This document shows, piece by piece, positions 3,090 to 12,706 of a stretch of 40,843 nt of DNA. The stretch's first letter is position 1, and each line of letters opens with the position of its first letter. A program made the position numbers and the translations under genes. The DNA comes from a virus: the IMG/VR virus record IMGVR_UViG_3300020125_000389, positions 1 through 40,843 of that record; one strand, given 5' to 3'. The notes under the pieces were generated by a model that was not told where the DNA came from, ran no database searches, and saw nothing but the letters and a program-made list of their open reading frames with translations.

Positions 3090-3167
3090 ATGCGAATGTG
3101 GAGCCGAGGAACAGTTGCTGAGTTTATCAGACTACGCGCGCGCCGTACACGCCGCCACCACCTATGA
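3090..3167 (+). CDS. 25-residue leader peptide coupled to the replication initiator
   Basis: This short frame starts with ATG at 3090 exactly five bases after a perfect GGAGGA Shine-Dalgarno (3079-3084) and stops with a TGA at 3165-3167 that overlaps the ATG of the initiator gene (ATGA). The initiator itself has no Shine-Dalgarno of its own. The peptide is highly basic (MRMWSRGTVAEF then IRLRARRTRRHHL). The arrangement resembles leader peptides whose translation drives initiator synthesis by coupling, such as tap-repA of IncFII plasmids. An inverted CTGA/TCAG pair at 3117-3129 lies inside it. That translation of this peptide sets initiator level is inference. Confidence 0.55.
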   Translation: MRMWSRGTVAEFIRLRARRTRRHHL

Positions 3168-4189
3168 GCGGTCGCTACGTGACGCGTGTGCTCGAGTCCG
3201 GGTTGCCGCTGCATTTGACGCGCACAGCGGTGGCCTGCGCAACGTTCGCCGACGACAAGGACGGCCGGCGAATCTGGCCGTCGGTCAAGACCCTCACGGA
3301 CCTCACGCGACAAAGTGAACGCACCGTGCAGAACCATTTGAAGGCGCTGCGCGAGCTCGACGTCCTCGAGGTGGTGGAGCCGGCGACGCGGTACCGAGCC
3401 ACGCACTACCGGATGGTCCTCGAGAAGTTGCCGAGACGAGACCCCGACGAACGGCCGCCGGCCAGTCAAGTCGCTGCACCCATCGTTGCACCCATGGTTG
3501 CACCCATGCCATGGGTGCAAGATCAGCCCGTCATGGGTGCAACCCAGGTTGCACCCGATCCGTCAGTACGATCCTCCAGTACACACACGTACCGCGCGCG
3601 CGCGAGAGAACGAGCCCCCGAACCGAAACTGCCGCTCGTCGGCGCAGTGCCGCACCGAGCTGCCGGCGAGCACAGAGCTCACGCTTGGTGCAGTCGACGT
3701 GGAATCTGCGTTACGAAATTCTTGCACCGAGAGTTCGTCGGCCAGATCGGCGGACCAGCGCGGACGCGCGAGGCGCGTGTCTTCGCGTTTTACGCGGAGA
3801 CCATGACGGACCTGTCGCATCGCGACACGATCGGCGACGTCTTGAAATTCTGGCGTGCCGCGTTCGACGCCCGATTCGGAACAGTGGCGCCTGGGCGTTC
3901 GCGACCCTCCGTGCCGTCGACGACGCTCGGTGACGACGTCTGGTCCGACGTTCTGCGTCGGCTCGAGCTCAAGGTCAGCAAACACAATTTCTGGACCTGG
4001 TTTCGCGGCACCGAGCTCGCGCGCGACCGCCGCACCTTGATTGAAGTCGCAGCGCCCCTCGAGCGCGGGCAGTTCATTACGAAGCACTTTTCGAAAGAGC
4101 TCACCGCGGCGGTGGAAGAAGTCCGAGCGGGCACCAGAGTCGTATTCGTGGAGACGAAGGCCTCGTCAGCGAAGCGGAGGCACGGGTGA
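3164..4189 (+). CDS. Replication initiator: winged-helix N-terminus plus DnaA-N-like C-terminus
   Basis: A 341-residue protein. Residues 15-85 form a winged helix-turn-helix of the phage O/HTH_36 kind (WPSVKTLTDLTRQSERTVQ, then NHLKALRELDVLEVVE, wing ATRYRATHYRM). Residues ~100-145 are a Pro/Val-rich linker encoded by 12-base iteron-like repeats. Residues ~175-245 are a helical segment, and residues ~257-330 resemble the DnaA N-terminal domain (VWSDVLRRLELKVSKHNFWTW, then LIEVAAPLERGQFITKHF), which in DnaA contacts the replicative helicase. The plan matches lambda O: an origin-binding domain, an origin inside the linker-coding DNA, and a helicase-recruiting C-terminus. No helicase or loader is visible nearby, so host DnaB is probably recruited. 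Translation is coupled to the leader peptide at 3090. Confidence 0.8.
   Translation: MSGRYVTRVLESGLPLHLTRTAVACATFADDKDGRRIWPSVKTLTDLTRQSERTVQNHLKALRELDVLEVVEPATRYRATHYRMVLEKLPRRDPDERPPASQVAAPIVAPMVAPMPWVQDQPVMGATQVAPDPSVRSSSTHTYRARARERAPEPKLPLVGAVPHRAAGEHRAHAWCSRRGICVTKFLHREFVGQIGGPARTREARVFAFYAETMTDLSHRDTIGDVLKFWRAAFDARFGTVAPGRSRPSVPSTTLGDDVWSDVLRRLELKVSKHNFWTWFRGTELARDRRTLIEVAAPLERGQFITKHFSKELTAAVEEVRAGTRVVFVETKASSAKRRHG
3473..3559 (+). repeat. Iteron-like repeats, candidate replication origin
   Basis: Six copies of a ~11-12-base element with core TTGCACCCAT lie inside the initiator gene: direct copies at 3473-3484 (GCTGCACCCATC), 3485-3496 and 3497-3508 (both GTTGCACCCATG) and 3548-3559 (GTTGCACCCGAT), and inverted copies at 3510-3520 and 3532-3543. 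The first three are head-to-tail with a 12-base period. Copies 3498-3508 and 3510-3520 form a perfect 11-bp inverted repeat with a 1-base centre. The placement in the linker-coding part of an O-like initiator gene is the classic lambdoid origin position. Partial copies may lie near 3693 and 3722. Confidence 0.7.
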
Positions 4190-4452
4190 GGACCTGGATG
4201 CGCACGCGCGTCGACGAGACACGCTGCGGTCGGTGCGGCGGCCGCTACAAGGCCGGGACGCCGATGCTCGTGCTCGAGGCCGTCGGCTGGCGGCGGCCGC
4301 TGCGGCGCTGCCCGACCTGTGCGGGCGAGCCGGTGCCGGCCGACGTCGCCGCTCTGCCGGAGGAACTGCCGAGGGGTGAACGGCCGCAGATGCGCGCGGT
4401 CAGAACGGCGGCGCTCGACGACAAACAGCGTCAACTCGGAGGCGATCAGTGA
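4186..4452 (+). CDS. Small zinc-ribbon protein
   Basis: An 88-residue protein starting at a GTG that overlaps the initiator stop (GTGA); an in-frame ATG at 4198 is an alternative. It has two cysteine pairs, CGRC at about residue 14 and CPTC at about residue 42, framing a short beta segment (GTPMLVLEAVGWRRPLRR), which fits a zinc ribbon. The tail is polar. It sits between the replication initiator and the HerA-like ATPase and its stop overlaps the ATPase start, so it may belong to the replication or DNA-processing module. Specific role unknown. Confidence 0.65.
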   Translation: MRTWMRTRVDETRCGRCGGRYKAGTPMLVLEAVGWRRPLRRCPTCAGEPVPADVAALPEELPRGERPQMRAVRTAALDDKQRQLGGDQ

Positions 4453-4778
4453 CGGCGCGCGCGCTCCACCTCGCGAAGAACCTGAAGCTGCCGCTCGACG
4501 CGGTGACGCAAACGTTCGCGATCTTCGGGAAGCGCGGCTCCGGGAAGACGAACGGCGCCACGGTGCTCGTCGAGGAGATGCTGCGCGCGAATCTGAACGT
4601 CGTCGTGCTCGATCCTGTTGACGCCTGGTGGGGTCTGAAATCGAGCTTCGATGGGAAGTCCGCAGGATTGCCGATCTACGTCTTCGGCGGGCCGCACGCC
4701 GATCTTCCGCTCGAGTCGACGGCCGGCACGCTGATCGCGGACCTTGTTGTCAAGGAACGGCTCCCGCTCGTGCTGTAG
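4449..4778 (+). CDS. HerA/FtsK-like ATPase, N-terminal part (ends at in-frame amber)
   Basis: 109 residues, GTG start overlapping the preceding TGA. Residues 22-45 contain a textbook Walker A (GKRGSGKT, residues 27-34) followed by a hydrophobic strand and LDPVDAWWGL, as in HerA/VirB4-type DNA-translocating ATPases. The frame stops at TAG 4776-4778 and continues without any shift in the gene at 4779. Homologous ATPases are single chains, so this is the N-terminal piece of one gene split by an amber codon. Options are a recent nonsense mutation, read-through or suppression, or a true two-subunit ATPase made by stop-restart at TAGATG. Alone it has the P-loop but no Walker B. Confidence 0.7.
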   Translation: MTARALHLAKNLKLPLDAVTQTFAIFGKRGSGKTNGATVLVEEMLRANLNVVVLDPVDAWWGLKSSFDGKSAGLPIYVFGGPHADLPLESTAGTLIADLVVKERLPLVL

Positions 4779-6206
4779 ATGAAGACGTGGGGCGTCGGCG
4801 AGCGCGCGCGGTTCGTCACTGACTTCGCCAAGCAGCTGCTGCGGACCAACAGCGAGCCCGTCATGGTCATCCTCGAGGAAGCCGACGCGTTCATCCCGCA
4901 GCGGCCGGCGAAGGGCGAAGAGGCGATGCTCGGCGAGATGGACCGCATGGTGCGGTGGGGCCGTTCGAGCGGCATCGGGTGCACGCTCATCACGCAGCGG
5001 TCAGCGAAGGTCAACAAGGACGTGACCACGCAGGCCGAGACGTTGATCGCGTTCCGGACGACCGGGCCGCAGGACCGCGACGCGATCGACAACTGGATCA
5101 AGTTCCACGCCGGCGAGGCGAAGCGCGACGAACTGCTATCGACGCTGCCCGAGCTCGCGACGGGCACGGCCTGGGTGTGGTCGCCGGAGTGGCTGGACGT
5201 CTTCGACCGGTACGCGTTCCGCCGGCGGACGACCTACGACTCGGCGTCGACGCCGAAGGTAGGGGAGAAGCGGCCGAAGCCGAAGGAGCTCGCGCCGGTT
5301 GACCTAGAGAAGTTGCGCGGGCAGATGGCGGCGACGATCGAGCGCGCGAAGGCGGAGGATCCGCGCGAGTTGCGCCGGCAGATCGCCGCGCTCAAGCGTG
5401 AACTTGAGGATCCTCGCAACAGCCCGGCCCCGTCGCGGCCGCAGCCGAAGGTCATCGAGAAGCCGGTCCTGAAGGAAGCGCAGCTGAAGCGCCTCGAGGC
5501 GGACCTCGTGCGATTCGACAAGGCCGCCGAACGCCTGACCACGGCGTGGGGCGTCATCCGCGAGCTCGCCGATCGTCTCGCCGCGAATGGGAAACTGATC
5601 GCCGCCGCGATCGACCAGACGCGTCAACCACTTGCCGGCCGTCGCGAGGAACGGACCTCGCGCGCGGTCTCACTCGGCGTCACCCCGGCGCCACCATCGC
5701 GCGGAATGGGAAGCCGCGGCCGGCAATCGATCGCCTCGGGCAACGGCGACGCCGCGCTCGGTCGTGCCGAACGCGCGATCCTCGCGGCGGCCGTCCAACG
5801 TCTGCCGAAATCATCGTCGCGCGCGCAGTTGGCGGTGCTCTCGGGCTACTCGATCAAGAGCAGCTCGTTCGCGAACGCGCTCGGTGCGCTCCGATCGCAG
5901 GGCCTGATCGCCGGCGCCGGCGACGACAATCGCGCAACCGACGCCGGCGCCGCGGCGCTCGGCGCGTTCGACCCCTTGCCGACCGGCGACGAGCTCGTGC
6001 GCTACTGGCAGGGCCAGCTTGGCAAGGCGGAGGCCGCGCTGCTCGAGGTGTTCGTTCGCCACTATCCGCACGACGTCGACAAGGACACGCTCTCGAAAGA
6101 GAGCGGCTACTCGGCCTCGAGCAGCAGCTTTGCGAACGCGCTCGGCAAGCTGCGCACGCTCGAGCTCGTCACCGGCCTGCGCGCGAGCGAGGAGCTGTTC
6201 GTATGA
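4779..6206 (+). CDS. HerA/FtsK-like ATPase, C-terminal part with duplicated C-terminal domain
   Basis: 475 residues in the same frame as 4449-4778, starting at an ATG directly after the TAG. Residues 28-37 hold the Walker B-like strand (VMVILEEADAF), and residues 60-105 the conserved segment GRSSGIGCTLITQRSAKVNKD and TTGPQDRDAI typical of HerA-type phage ATPases. The region ~165-300 is helical and probably coiled. The C-terminus contains two related ~60-residue units (around residues 328-390 and 407-470), each with a GYS-x-x-SSSFANALG-x-LR motif that looks like a winged-helix DNA-binding repeat. No strong Shine-Dalgarno precedes the ATG, so translation would rely on reinitiation or read-through. 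Likely role: DNA translocation or processing in replication or recombination. Confidence 0.7.
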   Translation: MKTWGVGERARFVTDFAKQLLRTNSEPVMVILEEADAFIPQRPAKGEEAMLGEMDRMVRWGRSSGIGCTLITQRSAKVNKDVTTQAETLIAFRTTGPQDRDAIDNWIKFHAGEAKRDELLSTLPELATGTAWVWSPEWLDVFDRYAFRRRTTYDSASTPKVGEKRPKPKELAPVDLEKLRGQMAATIERAKAEDPRELRRQIAALKRELEDPRNSPAPSRPQPKVIEKPVLKEAQLKRLEADLVRFDKAAERLTTAWGVIRELADRLAANGKLIAAAIDQTRQPLAGRREERTSRAVSLGVTPAPPSRGMGSRGRQSIASGNGDAALGRAERAILAAAVQRLPKSSSRAQLAVLSGYSIKSSSFANALGALRSQGLIAGAGDDNRATDAGAAALGAFDPLPTGDELVRYWQGQLGKAEAALLEVFVRHYPHDVDKDTLSKESGYSASSSSFANALGKLRTLELVTGLRASEELFV

Positions 6207-6685: not shown

Positions 6686-6888
6686 ATCAGCGGGCCGACC
6701 GCGAGCTCGAGGAATGGATCGACGTCGAGCTCGAGTTCTACGTGAAGGGCCTGATCAACGAGCGCGACTACGCGATCCTTCGGCGCAACCTCATCGACAT
6801 CGCGCGCGCTGAGCGCAGACGCAGATCTCCGCGGCAACCGGGAACCTCGTTGGCAGTGAAGAGCCATGCCAGGACCAGTGTCGGATAG
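6682..6888 (+). CDS. Small helical hypothetical protein
   Basis: 68 residues starting with ATGA overlap. The first 50 residues are an acidic to basic helical hairpin (ELEEWIDVELEFYVKGLIN, then RDYAILRRNLIDIARAERRRR). No motif, signal or membrane segment. It overlaps the next gene by 23 bases. I do not recognise it. Confidence 0.5.
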   Translation: MNQRADRELEEWIDVELEFYVKGLINERDYAILRRNLIDIARAERRRRSPRQPGTSLAVKSHARTSVG

Positions 6889-7111
6889 CTTCGATCCCGA
6901 ATTCGGCACCGGCGAGAACGCCGACTTCGTGCGCACCGCGATCGAGGCCGTGCGGACGCGGGTCTGTCGCGGCCTGCCGGACGAGCTGCGCAACATCGTC
7001 GAGGTCGCGCGTGAGGGTCCGCGTCGCGGCAAGAGATTGGCGGTGTTGCTGACAGAAAACGAGCGGCGTGTGCTGCGGTTCGCGCTCAATCGCGCGCTGG
7101 AGTCGATCTGA
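6866..7111 (+). CDS. Hypothetical small helical protein
   Basis: 81 residues, mostly helical (DFVRTAIEAVRTRVCRGL and LLTENERRVLRFALNRALES). The C-terminal part resembles a short leucine-rich helix pair found in many phage accessory proteins. It overlaps the upstream gene by 23 bases, and its TGA overlaps the ATG of the DUF5131 gene. No function can be assigned. Confidence 0.55.
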   Translation: MPGPVSDSFDPEFGTGENADFVRTAIEAVRTRVCRGLPDELRNIVEVAREGPRRGKRLAVLLTENERRVLRFALNRALESI

Positions 7112-8019
7112 TGAGCGATCGCAGCGCGATTCAGTGGACGGACGCGACGTGGAACCCGACGACGGGCTGCACGAAGATCTCGCCGGGCTGCGCGCACTGC
7201 TACATCGAGACGACGCCGGCGTTTCGGGTCCGGCATCGGCAGTTCGACGCGAAGGGCCACATCCCGCTGCAGCTGCACGATGATCGACTGACGCAGCCGA
7301 TGCGCTGGCGCGAGCCGCGCCGGATCTTCGTCAACAGCCTCAGCGACCTCTTCCACCGCGACATCCCCGCCGACTTCATCGACAAGGTCTTCGCGGTGAT
7401 GGCGCTGACGCCGCAGCACACGTTTCAGGTGCTGACGAAGCGCGCGCCGCGAATGTGCGACTACGTCTGCGCCCGCATCCAGGGCACTGAGCGCGAAGTC
7501 CTCAATGACGCGATTCAGTTCGCGATGGACGAGGCCCCGCGAGGCTGGCAGCTGAGCGGCGCGCCGTACGCCTGGCCGTTACCGAACGTCTGGCTCGGCG
7601 TCAGCGTCGAGAACCAGCGGCTCAGGCGGCGCATCGACTACTTGCTCGAGACGCCGGCCGCTGTCCGCTTCGTCAGCGCCGAGCCGCTGCTCGAGGATCT
7701 CGACTTCACGCCGTACCTGGCCGGTGACGCGCTCGCGGCGCCGGGTCCTGGGGGCTTCCGCAAAGGGCCGAAGCTCGATTGGGTGATCGTCGGCGGCGAG
7801 TGGACCCGCTCGCTCGCGGACGCGCGCGAATGTCGGCTTGAGTGGATCGATTCGCTCGTTGAGCAATGTCACGACGCCGGTGTCGCTTGCTACGTCAAGC
7901 AGCTCGGACGGCAGCCGCGGGCCGCCGACAACCTCTACCTCAATCTTCGCGACAAGCACGGCGGTGACCCGGCCGAGTGGCAGACGCCGTACCCGCGCGA
8001 ATTTCCGGCGACCGCATGA
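7111..8019 (+). CDS. DUF5131 family protein (phage Gp37/Gp68-like)
   Basis: 302 residues, the family's usual length. The diagnostic N-terminus is present: IQWTDATWNPTTGC then SPGCAHCY, giving cysteines at 20, 27 and 30 in a radical-SAM-like CX6CX2C arrangement. Further family blocks are RIFVNSLSDLFH, FQVLTKRA, LPNVWLGVSVENQ, RFVSAEPLLEDLDF, WVIVGGE and the C-terminal CYVKQLG. The biochemical activity of the family is not established; the cysteine motif and TIM-barrel-like spacing suggest an iron-sulfur enzyme. It is common in phages and plasmids. One oddity is that the usual Ala after CY is replaced (CYIET). Coupled to both neighbours by overlaps. Confidence 0.88.
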   Translation: MSDRSAIQWTDATWNPTTGCTKISPGCAHCYIETTPAFRVRHRQFDAKGHIPLQLHDDRLTQPMRWREPRRIFVNSLSDLFHRDIPADFIDKVFAVMALTPQHTFQVLTKRAPRMCDYVCARIQGTEREVLNDAIQFAMDEAPRGWQLSGAPYAWPLPNVWLGVSVENQRLRRRIDYLLETPAAVRFVSAEPLLEDLDFTPYLAGDALAAPGPGGFRKGPKLDWVIVGGEWTRSLADARECRLEWIDSLVEQCHDAGVACYVKQLGRQPRAADNLYLNLRDKHGGDPAEWQTPYPREFPATA

Positions 8020-11329: not shown

Positions 11330-12163
11330 TCACGCGACGCTGCGCACGCGCTTTTTTTTCGGTCCCGCCTTCGCCGGCGTCTTTTTCTCGCGGCTCAGCG
11401 CCTCGAGGCTTTTCTTGAGGGCCTCGGAAAGGTTGACCACCGGCGGCGCCGGCACAGGCGTCAGGCCGACGATGTCTTCGCCGGCGATCTTCGCGTCGAT
11501 GATGCGCTGGAGGCCGGCGCGGTACTCGTCGGTGAACTCGGCAAAGTTCAACGGCCCTTCGAAGGCGCCGATGACTTTCCGCGCGAGCTTGATCTCGTCG
11601 GGTCGGCCGATCGCCGGCACTGCCGCGAGCTCGTCGACCGCCTCGATCGGTCGAATCTCCGCCGAGTGATGCAGGGTGTGCATGGCGAGCGCGCGCGCAA
11701 GCGGCCGAACGGCGACCAAGTACTCGCGGCCGTAGAGCGCGAGCTTCCCGATGCCCACCTTGCCCTTCATGGCATCCCGCATCAACGCGAAGGCCTCCGC
11801 GCCTGGCGCCTCGGGCGCGAGATAGTAAGTCCGATCGACAAACATCGGATCGAGCGCCGCTGCGTCGGCGAACTGCACCAGATCGATGACGCGGGTCGAC
11901 GGCGGCCGCACCTGGTCGAAGTCGGCGTCGTCGAGCACGACGTAGCGGTTCTTCTCGAATTCGAACCCCTTGACGATTTCCGCCTGTGGAACCTCGCGGC
12001 CGCAGGTCGCGCACCAGCGGCGCTGCTGCATGCGGGTGTGGCATTCGGCGTGGAGCTGGTTGAACCCGAGCGAGCCGCTCGCCTCCGTCGCCGGAAAGAC
12101 TTTGATCGGGATGTTCACCAAGCTAATCTTGAGGAATCCCTTCCACGTCGGTCGAGCGGCCAT
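11330..12163 (-). CDS. ku: Bacterial/phage-type Ku protein (non-homologous end joining)
   Basis: 277 residues, a normal length for bacterial Ku. The start (MAARPTWKGFLKISLVNIPI) is the canonical Ku opening, followed by the central block HAECHTRMQQRRWCATCGREV, the conserved FEFEKNRYVVLDD, the Ku core near TYYLAPEAPGAEAF, and YGREYLVAVRP. The C-terminus is Lys-rich (REKKTPAKAGPKKKRVR) as in DNA-binding Ku tails. Ku homodimers encircle double-strand ends and recruit LigD; no ligase gene is visible here. A GAGG sequence lies eight bases upstream of the ATG. It is encoded opposite to all neighbours, so it has its own promoter. Ku genes are known in mycobacteriophages Omega and Corndog, where they assist genome circularisation; a similar role is inferred. 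Confidence 0.93.
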   Translation of the reverse strand: MAARPTWKGFLKISLVNIPIKVFPATEASGSLGFNQLHAECHTRMQQRRWCATCGREVPQAEIVKGFEFEKNRYVVLDDADFDQVRPPSTRVIDLVQFADAAALDPMFVDRTYYLAPEAPGAEAFALMRDAMKGKVGIGKLALYGREYLVAVRPLARALAMHTLHHSAEIRPIEAVDELAAVPAIGRPDEIKLARKVIGAFEGPLNFAEFTDEYRAGLQRIIDAKIAGEDIVGLTPVPAPPVVNLSEALKKSLEALSREKKTPAKAGPKKKRVRSVA

Positions 12164-12253
12164 TAGCACCTCTGCGCAGCACGCCGCGCGCCAGCGCGGC
12201 TCGTCTGTATTTGTAAACGGCCCAAACCTTGATACTGATCTGTTTTCGGACGA
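12164..12253. promoter_or_regulatory. Divergent control region between Ku and the zinc-ribbon/HTH gene
   Basis: Ninety bases separate the divergent starts at 12163 (reverse) and 12254 (forward). The segment 12200-12250 is less GC-rich than its surroundings (ATTTGTAAAC, TTGATACTGATC), which fits promoters firing in both directions, but no clear -35/-10 pair stands out. The Ku ribosome-binding site lies at its left end. The forward gene has no Shine-Dalgarno and may be leaderless. Confidence 0.35.
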
Positions 12254-12706
12254 ATGGATTGCAGCCATTGCGGATCGCCGTTGGGCGCTGATCTCTCCTG
12301 CGTCGCGTGCAGGCCATCGCAAGCCGCCCCTGACGATCCCGAAGGCGCGTCGGGCGGCGGCAATCCGGAGCTGCCGGCCGGCGATCGCCGGGCTTCCGGC
12401 ATCGAGCGTCGCGACGCCCGGCGGCAGCGTCCCGTCGCCGGCGGCACCCGGCTGACGGATCCGCCGCTCACGACGCGCGCCTGCGCCGACTACATGGGGT
12501 TCAGCCCGGAGTGGATTCGCCAGGCCATCGAACACGGGCACTCGAACCAACAGGGTCTGACGGTGCGCCTCGAGGCCGAGACGCTGACGGTCAACGGTCG
12601 TCGCCTCCACCGCATCCACCTCGACGAGTTCATTCGCTTCCTGAAGGCCTACGGCTGGAAACGCGTCCCTCGGCACCCGCGCGAGCCCGCCGGCGTCCTG
12701 TCCTGA
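12254..12706 (+). CDS. Zinc-ribbon plus helix-turn-helix protein
   Basis: 150 residues. The N-terminus has two CxxC pairs (CSHC at 3-6, CVAC at 16-19), then a disordered Gly/Arg/Pro stretch to residue ~70. Residues 72-145 form an excisionase-like domain: LTTRACADYMGFSPEWIRQA, a wing containing TVNGRRLHRIH, and a final helix LDEFIRFLKAYGWKRVPR. The HTH half is a clear paralogue of the next gene (ACADYLGFTREWIR ... YGWKRxP/IGWKRMP). Likely a DNA-binding regulator; the zinc ribbon could mediate dimerisation. Confidence 0.65.
   Translation: MDCSHCGSPLGADLSCVACRPSQAAPDDPEGASGGGNPELPAGDRRASGIERRDARRQRPVAGGTRLTDPPLTTRACADYMGFSPEWIRQAIEHGHSNQQGLTVRLEAETLTVNGRRLHRIHLDEFIRFLKAYGWKRVPRHPREPAGVLS

Follow-up and report, generated by a model that had tools for sequence, protein, structure and literature searches.

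A probable replication origin inside a phage initiator gene, and the initiator family to which that gene belongs

Does a cluster of short repeats in the middle of a phage replication initiator gene mark the origin at which the phage begins to copy its DNA? The question was raised by an earlier note on positions 1 to 40,843 of IMG/VR record IMGVR_UViG_3300020125_000389, a stretch of 40,843 nucleotides that is referred to here as the window. The record is a 40.8-kb virus contig, in which terminase, portal, protease, major head, and tail genes lie downstream of the initiator gene. Origins inside initiator genes are already known from phage lambda and repABC plasmids. In lambda, iterons in the middle of gene O, in the segment encoding the linker of the protein, are followed directly by an AT-rich stretch (PMC7466680). 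The origin is likewise inside the initiator gene in repABC plasmids, whose repC contains an intragenic oriV; that of p42d is without iterons (PMC3155836). Our analysis indicates that positions 3474-3582 of the window are probably a replication origin inside the phage's initiator gene, where the initiator would occupy iterons, an adjacent element would open, and the helicase would be recruited.

The initiator gene and its repeats

The initiator is a protein of 341 aa with an N-terminal winged helix, a disordered linker that bears the repeats, and a weak DnaA_N-like C-terminal domain. The features of its gene are:

3164-4189, plus strand: initiator gene, 341 aa, matching PF13730 (HTH_36) and PHROG 391/270/678/1032 (replication initiation)
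3317-3355, plus strand: codons of the recognition helix, aa 52-64 (ERTVQNHL...), placed by AlphaFold2 and by covariation with the iteron core
3317-3319 (E52) and 3332-3334 (N57), plus strand: putative specificity residues, from covariation with the iteron core
3935-4108, plus strand: DnaA_N-like domain, aa 258-315 (PF11638, 22.1 bits, under the cut-off of 24.6)

The HTH_36 match scored 26.4 bits, above the Pfam cut-off of 25, and the replication-initiation PHROGs phrog_391 (1e-9) and phrog_270 (1.5e-9) were matched as well. AlphaFold2 returned a confident winged helix over aa 1-100 (pLDDT in this block mostly 88-97), with recognition helix 52-64 and wing strands at 68-72 and 81-84. The linker and the remainder of the protein were modeled at low confidence, and the DnaA_N-like C-terminal region was not resolved in the model. 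A fold search of the PDB gave no match at E below 0.001, the structures returned being generic winged-helix proteins only. The DnaA_N-like domain is presumed to be a helicase-recruiting module. An initiator of another clade (L396, 1501-2571) has the same layout of HTH_36, linker iterons (CCCCGAAG), and C-terminal DnaA_N, the last at 27.3 bits and thus above the Pfam cut-off.

The repeats fall within the linker-coding part of the gene:

3474-3483, plus strand: iteron 1, CTGCACCCAT, one mismatch to TTGCACCCAT
3486-3495, plus strand: iteron 2, exact TTGCACCCAT
3498-3507, plus strand: iteron 3, exact TTGCACCCAT, left arm of the perfect 23-bp inverted repeat 3498-3520
3511-3520, minus strand: iteron 4, exact TTGCACCCAT, inverted, right arm of 3498-3520
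3533-3542, minus strand: iteron 5, exact TTGCACCCAT, inverted, 22 bp from iteron 4
3549-3558, plus strand: iteron 6, TTGCACCCGA, two mismatches, forming the inverted pair 3535-3556 with iteron 5

The earlier note had described six copies, and the repeats are real at 3474-3558; four of them are exact and two imperfect, however, rather than six being equal. Its description of three copies head to tail at a 12-bp period (3474, 3486, and 3498 on the plus strand) with two inverted (3511 and 3533) was accurate, as was that of the perfect inverted repeat at 3498-3520, which has an 11 + 1 + 11 structure. The second inverted repeat, 3535-3556, has arms of 10 + 2 + 10. The placement of the repeats in the linker of a winged-helix initiator is borne out by the HTH_36 match and the AlphaFold2 model, in which the linker is of low confidence. 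The repeats all lie inside the extent of 3473-3559 given in that note, but the origin likely continues to ~3582.

Counted over the whole window, the 10-mer TTGCACCCAT is not over-represented. Five ATGGGTGCA 9-mers occur inside 60 bp, and there is no comparable cluster elsewhere in the 40.8 kb. When the linker was recoded synonymously with the peptide fixed, none of 200,000 trials reached the five exact 7-mer cores observed, the maximum being three. When the gene's own codons were permuted gene-wide, five cores occurred in 6 of 50,000 trials and the observed six never did; these permutations also never gave more than three of the 9-mers, versus the five observed. The copies in the window span three settings of frame and orientation, being read as VAP (GTT GCA CCC), WVQ (TGG GTG CAA), and GAT (GGT GCA ACC). 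The window repeats are real and are selected as DNA, as had been proposed. A predicted minimum of GC skew near 3.5 kb is absent, as the cumulative skew simply climbs across the region.

Covariation of recognition helix and iteron core

No close relatives of the window protein were found by tblastn in phages or by a peptide scan of IMG/VR, and the family was therefore reached through other members. A DNA scan of IMG/VR for three TTGCACC at short gaps, blind to the encoded protein, recovered a dozen or more further HTH initiators whose linkers contain the core, read in frames and orientations that differ from those of the window. The same scan also brought up collagen-like tail genes. Members of another phage gene family (L017, 12259-13236, minus strand; L116, 8205-9107, plus strand) have TTGCACC-type triplets near the gene start, partly read as WCKL/GANW, and by eye are not HTH initiators. 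Relatives were then chosen by protein and not by motif, from 18 named phage genes and loci in viral and genome collections, giving 386 homologous initiators, of which 177 were non-redundant. No phage match was found for L107. The window protein belongs, as a divergent member, to these HTH_36 initiators, which are often annotated as primosomal protein I, replication protein O, or hypothetical.

A linker cluster, in which one of four cores occurs three or more times, was present in 131 of the 177, beginning at ~aa 95 (sd 11) and spanning ~100 nt; the other 46 had no callable cluster of the four core classes. The check that the earlier note had called for, conservation of the repeats against synonymous drift in homologous initiators, is strongly positive. 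All but one of the genes with TGCACC or TGACA cores use 2-5 settings of frame and orientation. That linker cores in relatives are read in several frames and both orientations argues that selection acts on the DNA. Copies in the same orientation most often lie 21-22 bp apart in genes of the TGCACC and TGACA classes, and 17 or 22 bp apart in those of the CCGAAG class. The 12-bp period of the window is unusual among these relatives, but a distance of 22 bp separates its two inverted copies.

The core varies together with the recognition helix. We aligned the helices in the frame S-x-R-[TSA]-V-Q-X and compared residue X with the core. Tyr or Asn at X occurred with GGTGCA in 73 cases (window included) and with GGTG[A/T]CA in none, whereas Arg occurred with GGTG[A/T]CA in 24 cases and with GGTGCA in none, among the 177 relatives (Fisher test, 24:0 versus 0:73, 3e-23, a value that ignores kinship). 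The window helix, SERTVQNHL (VQN), with the core GGTGCA/TGCACC, matches the Y/N class. In a clade with Ala or Gly at X, helix position 2 takes this part, Asp going with CCGAAG (21:0) and Glu with CCGCAG (7:0). Contrasting pairs can be 62-69% identical outside the helix and still differ in both X and core, and contrasting Asp/Glu pairs reach up to 80% identity. On the best tree, which was built without the helix columns, residue and core each change seven times; restricting the comparison to strongly supported branches leaves only two independent switch pairs, both concordant and too few for a sign test. In a test set of 64 new genes picked by the second element described below, all 21 callable predictions agreed with no contradictions, and 18 genes had a prediction but no callable core.

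Residue X alone was rejected as a universal code. In the main set, 14 of 38 Arg members and 4 Asn members had no callable core of the predicted class, as was the case for 17 Arg, Tyr, or Asn members of the test set, none of which was called as the opposite class. Some Arg members bear other cores (e.g., CCGGCAAA). The rule holds within the S-x-R-T-V-Q context and is not universal. Initiators of Arthrobacter-type phages (L133, L134, L381, and L382) have VQN or VHS helices and mixed repeats (GGGTGAA, ACGGTTC, and CACCCCG) that the simple rule explains only in part.

A second element 3' of the iterons

The DNA directly 3' of the iterons, which the earlier note had passed over, contains a second repeated element in the family. 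A drop in GC of 13.5 points (sd 7.3, n = 131) occurs within 40 bp of the last iteron, and the motif found there is a tandem (G)AACC[A/G]TCA, present across all four core classes; in enteric relatives it takes the form AACCAGTCA. It is encoded as EPSxEPS, RTIxEP, or NHQ. Strict copies of either form number at least one in 91, at least two in 52, and at least three in 28 of the 131 genes, with a mean of 1.37 per gene versus 0.14 expected from synonymous recoding. The copies use all three frames and are mostly spaced by 10-11 bp, and they lie on one strand only, with 0 on the other. The 356 kb of flanking DNA held just one pair. When IMG/VR was scanned for three AACC[A/G]TCA repeats, 120 loci were recovered, and at 90 of these the repeats lie in a gene that matches HTH initiators significantly; by eye, about half of the remainder looked like truncated or divergent initiators, and most of the others were simple repeats. 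Tandem AACCATCA repeats were also seen in two replication-like proteins (L626, ~11506-12424, plus strand; L547, ~6810-7587 in reverse complement numbering), which are DnaD-like in appearance and have no significant HTH-initiator match. As these two genes carry the repeats, the second element may be common to unrelated initiator families.

In the window, two stretches beyond the iterons are candidates for further parts of the origin:

3557-3582, plus strand: candidate unwinding element, GATCCGTCAGTAC GATCCTCCAGTAC, a degenerate AACC[A/G]TCA tandem adjoining the last iteron as in relatives
3676-3735, no strand assigned: candidate outer part of the origin, weak (GC 52% versus ~67%, the lowest 60 bp of the gene region)

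At the predicted place, the first stretch contains a copy with a single mismatch and a second, weak copy. With a permissive matrix, which was drawn after the window had been seen, the pair is by far the best in the window (17.9 versus 2.5); a strict matrix puts the first copy at rank 13 of 81,666 and the second at rank 705. The match to the AACC[A/G]TCA element in the window itself is good, not decisive. No clear AT-rich unwinding region was seen directly at the iterons of the window, where the GC dip is only mild. The second stretch, ~120 bp past the iterons, contains stray cores at 3687 (GGTGCA) and 3723 (TGCACC) and is possibly an outer part of the origin.

Proposed mechanism, alternatives, and significance

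The window and its relatives read as iterons plus an unwinding element, a logic like that of lambda. We infer that several initiator molecules would bind the TTGCACC iterons via the N-terminal winged helix, in which Asn57 of helix 52-64 would represent the Y/N class that goes with GGTGCA. Their binding would strain the adjacent 3557-3582, the likely counterpart of the lower-GC AACC[A/G]TCA tandem repeats of the family, and this element would open. The C-terminal DnaA_N-like domain would then bring in the host replicative helicase, and the origin would fire. Domain I of DnaA contacts DnaB, which suggests, by analogy, direct recruitment of the helicase in the window and in L396. In lambda, the opened strand is bound by O and P, and binding to single-stranded unwinding elements is known for some plasmid initiators (PMC5043065); the AACC[A/G]TCA repeats could by analogy be read as a single strand. 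Counting against the origin reading are the absent GC-skew minimum, the degenerate second element and mild GC dip of the window, its unusual 12-bp period, the DnaA_N match under the Pfam cut-off, and the 46 relatives with no callable cluster.

It is unlikely, though it is the best placed of the alternatives, that the sites form an operator within the gene, bound by the initiator's winged helix for autoregulation or copy-number control, while replication starts elsewhere. The covariation suggests binding by the protein's own helix and does not thereby show initiation, so that it would suit such an operator as well. However, the sites are ~300 nt inside the gene and not at a promoter, and the lower-GC repeated element on a fixed side of them is the layout of the lambda origin, iterons and then an AT-rich region (PMC7466680). 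That the sites serve another DNA-binding protein of phage or host, for packaging, partition, or repression, is more improbable again, as the core changes with residues of the initiator's own recognition helix, even between close relatives. Selection on a Val-Ala-Pro linker, with the repeated DNA as a by-product, might be suspected from the three copies that give (I/M)VAP in one frame, but is very hard to credit when the inverted copies encode WVQ and GAT, the repeats are lost on synonymous recoding, and the cores of relatives occur in several frames and both orientations. A recent, functionless tandem duplication in a tolerant linker could give the slippage-like 12-bp period of three copies, but is just as implausible given the inverted copies, the same core in proteins mostly 14-60% identical pairwise, and a core that is predictable from a helix residue.

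The origin reading of the earlier note is supported overall, and its parallel with the lambdoid origin in gene O applies to the place and layout of the iterons, in the linker-coding middle of the initiator gene and followed, in lambda, by an AT-rich stretch. It does not extend to the protein, which has no match to PF04492 (Phage_rep_O) and by sequence is not a relative of lambda O. In a profile comparison of lambda O with an HTH_36 set the probability was 0.1%, the N-terminal domains having no detectable sequence relationship. The lambda iterons also differ, and the lambda AT-rich region is without AACC[A/G]TCA repeats. The lambda-type layout, iterons in mid-gene and then a region of lower GC, is seen at the level of the family. 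In a plasmid derived from an Stx phage and dependent on its own origin, silent disruption of an iteron abolished transformation (PMC7466680). The RP-C profile gave weak matches in some relatives of the window protein, one just under the cut-off. The HTH_36 initiators of PHROG 391/270/1032/678 share the domain, the linker position, and probably the layout of iterons plus second element with the window, which differs in its 12-bp spacing, its degenerate second element, and its DnaA_N-like C-terminus, those of the others being DnaT-like or unrelated. A further likeness is to RepA of the PLE satellites of Vibrio cholerae, for which the excerpted account describes covariation of the DNA-binding domain with the iterons and swapping of modules (PMC8263062). 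As described in those excerpts, PLE RepA differs in having a RepA_N domain, an intergenic origin, two groups only, and no residue-level rule (PMC8263062).

The surrounding family makes this locus more interesting than a single lambda-like origin. What appears to be new is that, across hundreds of phage initiators, one or two helix residues predict the repeated core, and that iterons of any core class are followed by a second motif with a fixed polarity. Searches of open-access papers turned up no account of the residue-level rule or of the AACC[A/G]TCA element, and those for the motifs returned primers and unrelated work only. We hypothesize, with the chances about even, that phage and prophage initiators of Proteobacteria, Actinobacteria, and other groups form a large superfamily whose origins describe themselves. 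Each gene would encode a helix that binds DNA and would also contain, in the linker part, the sites for this helix, with a readable code from residue to base. Most would share the tandem AACC[A/G]TCA, which would serve opening or helicase loading whatever the code and would be used by unrelated DnaD-like initiators too. If the residue-level rule and the second motif hold, one could locate origins and predict incompatibility groups directly from the sequence of many prophages whose initiators are annotated "primosomal protein I" or "hypothetical", and each initiator gene would be a natural pair of protein and site for the study of how DNA recognition evolves. The common second element also raises the question of which protein or DNA property it serves.

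Two other genes near the initiator gene were noted. An in-frame TAG at 4776-4778, with an ATG directly after it, divides a HerA/FtsK-like ATPase gene at 4449-6206, and both halves match successive parts of phrog_2666; this may reflect a pseudogene, a sequencing error, recoding, or stop-restart. A DUF5131/phrog_2045 gene is located at 7111-8019, near the replication module.
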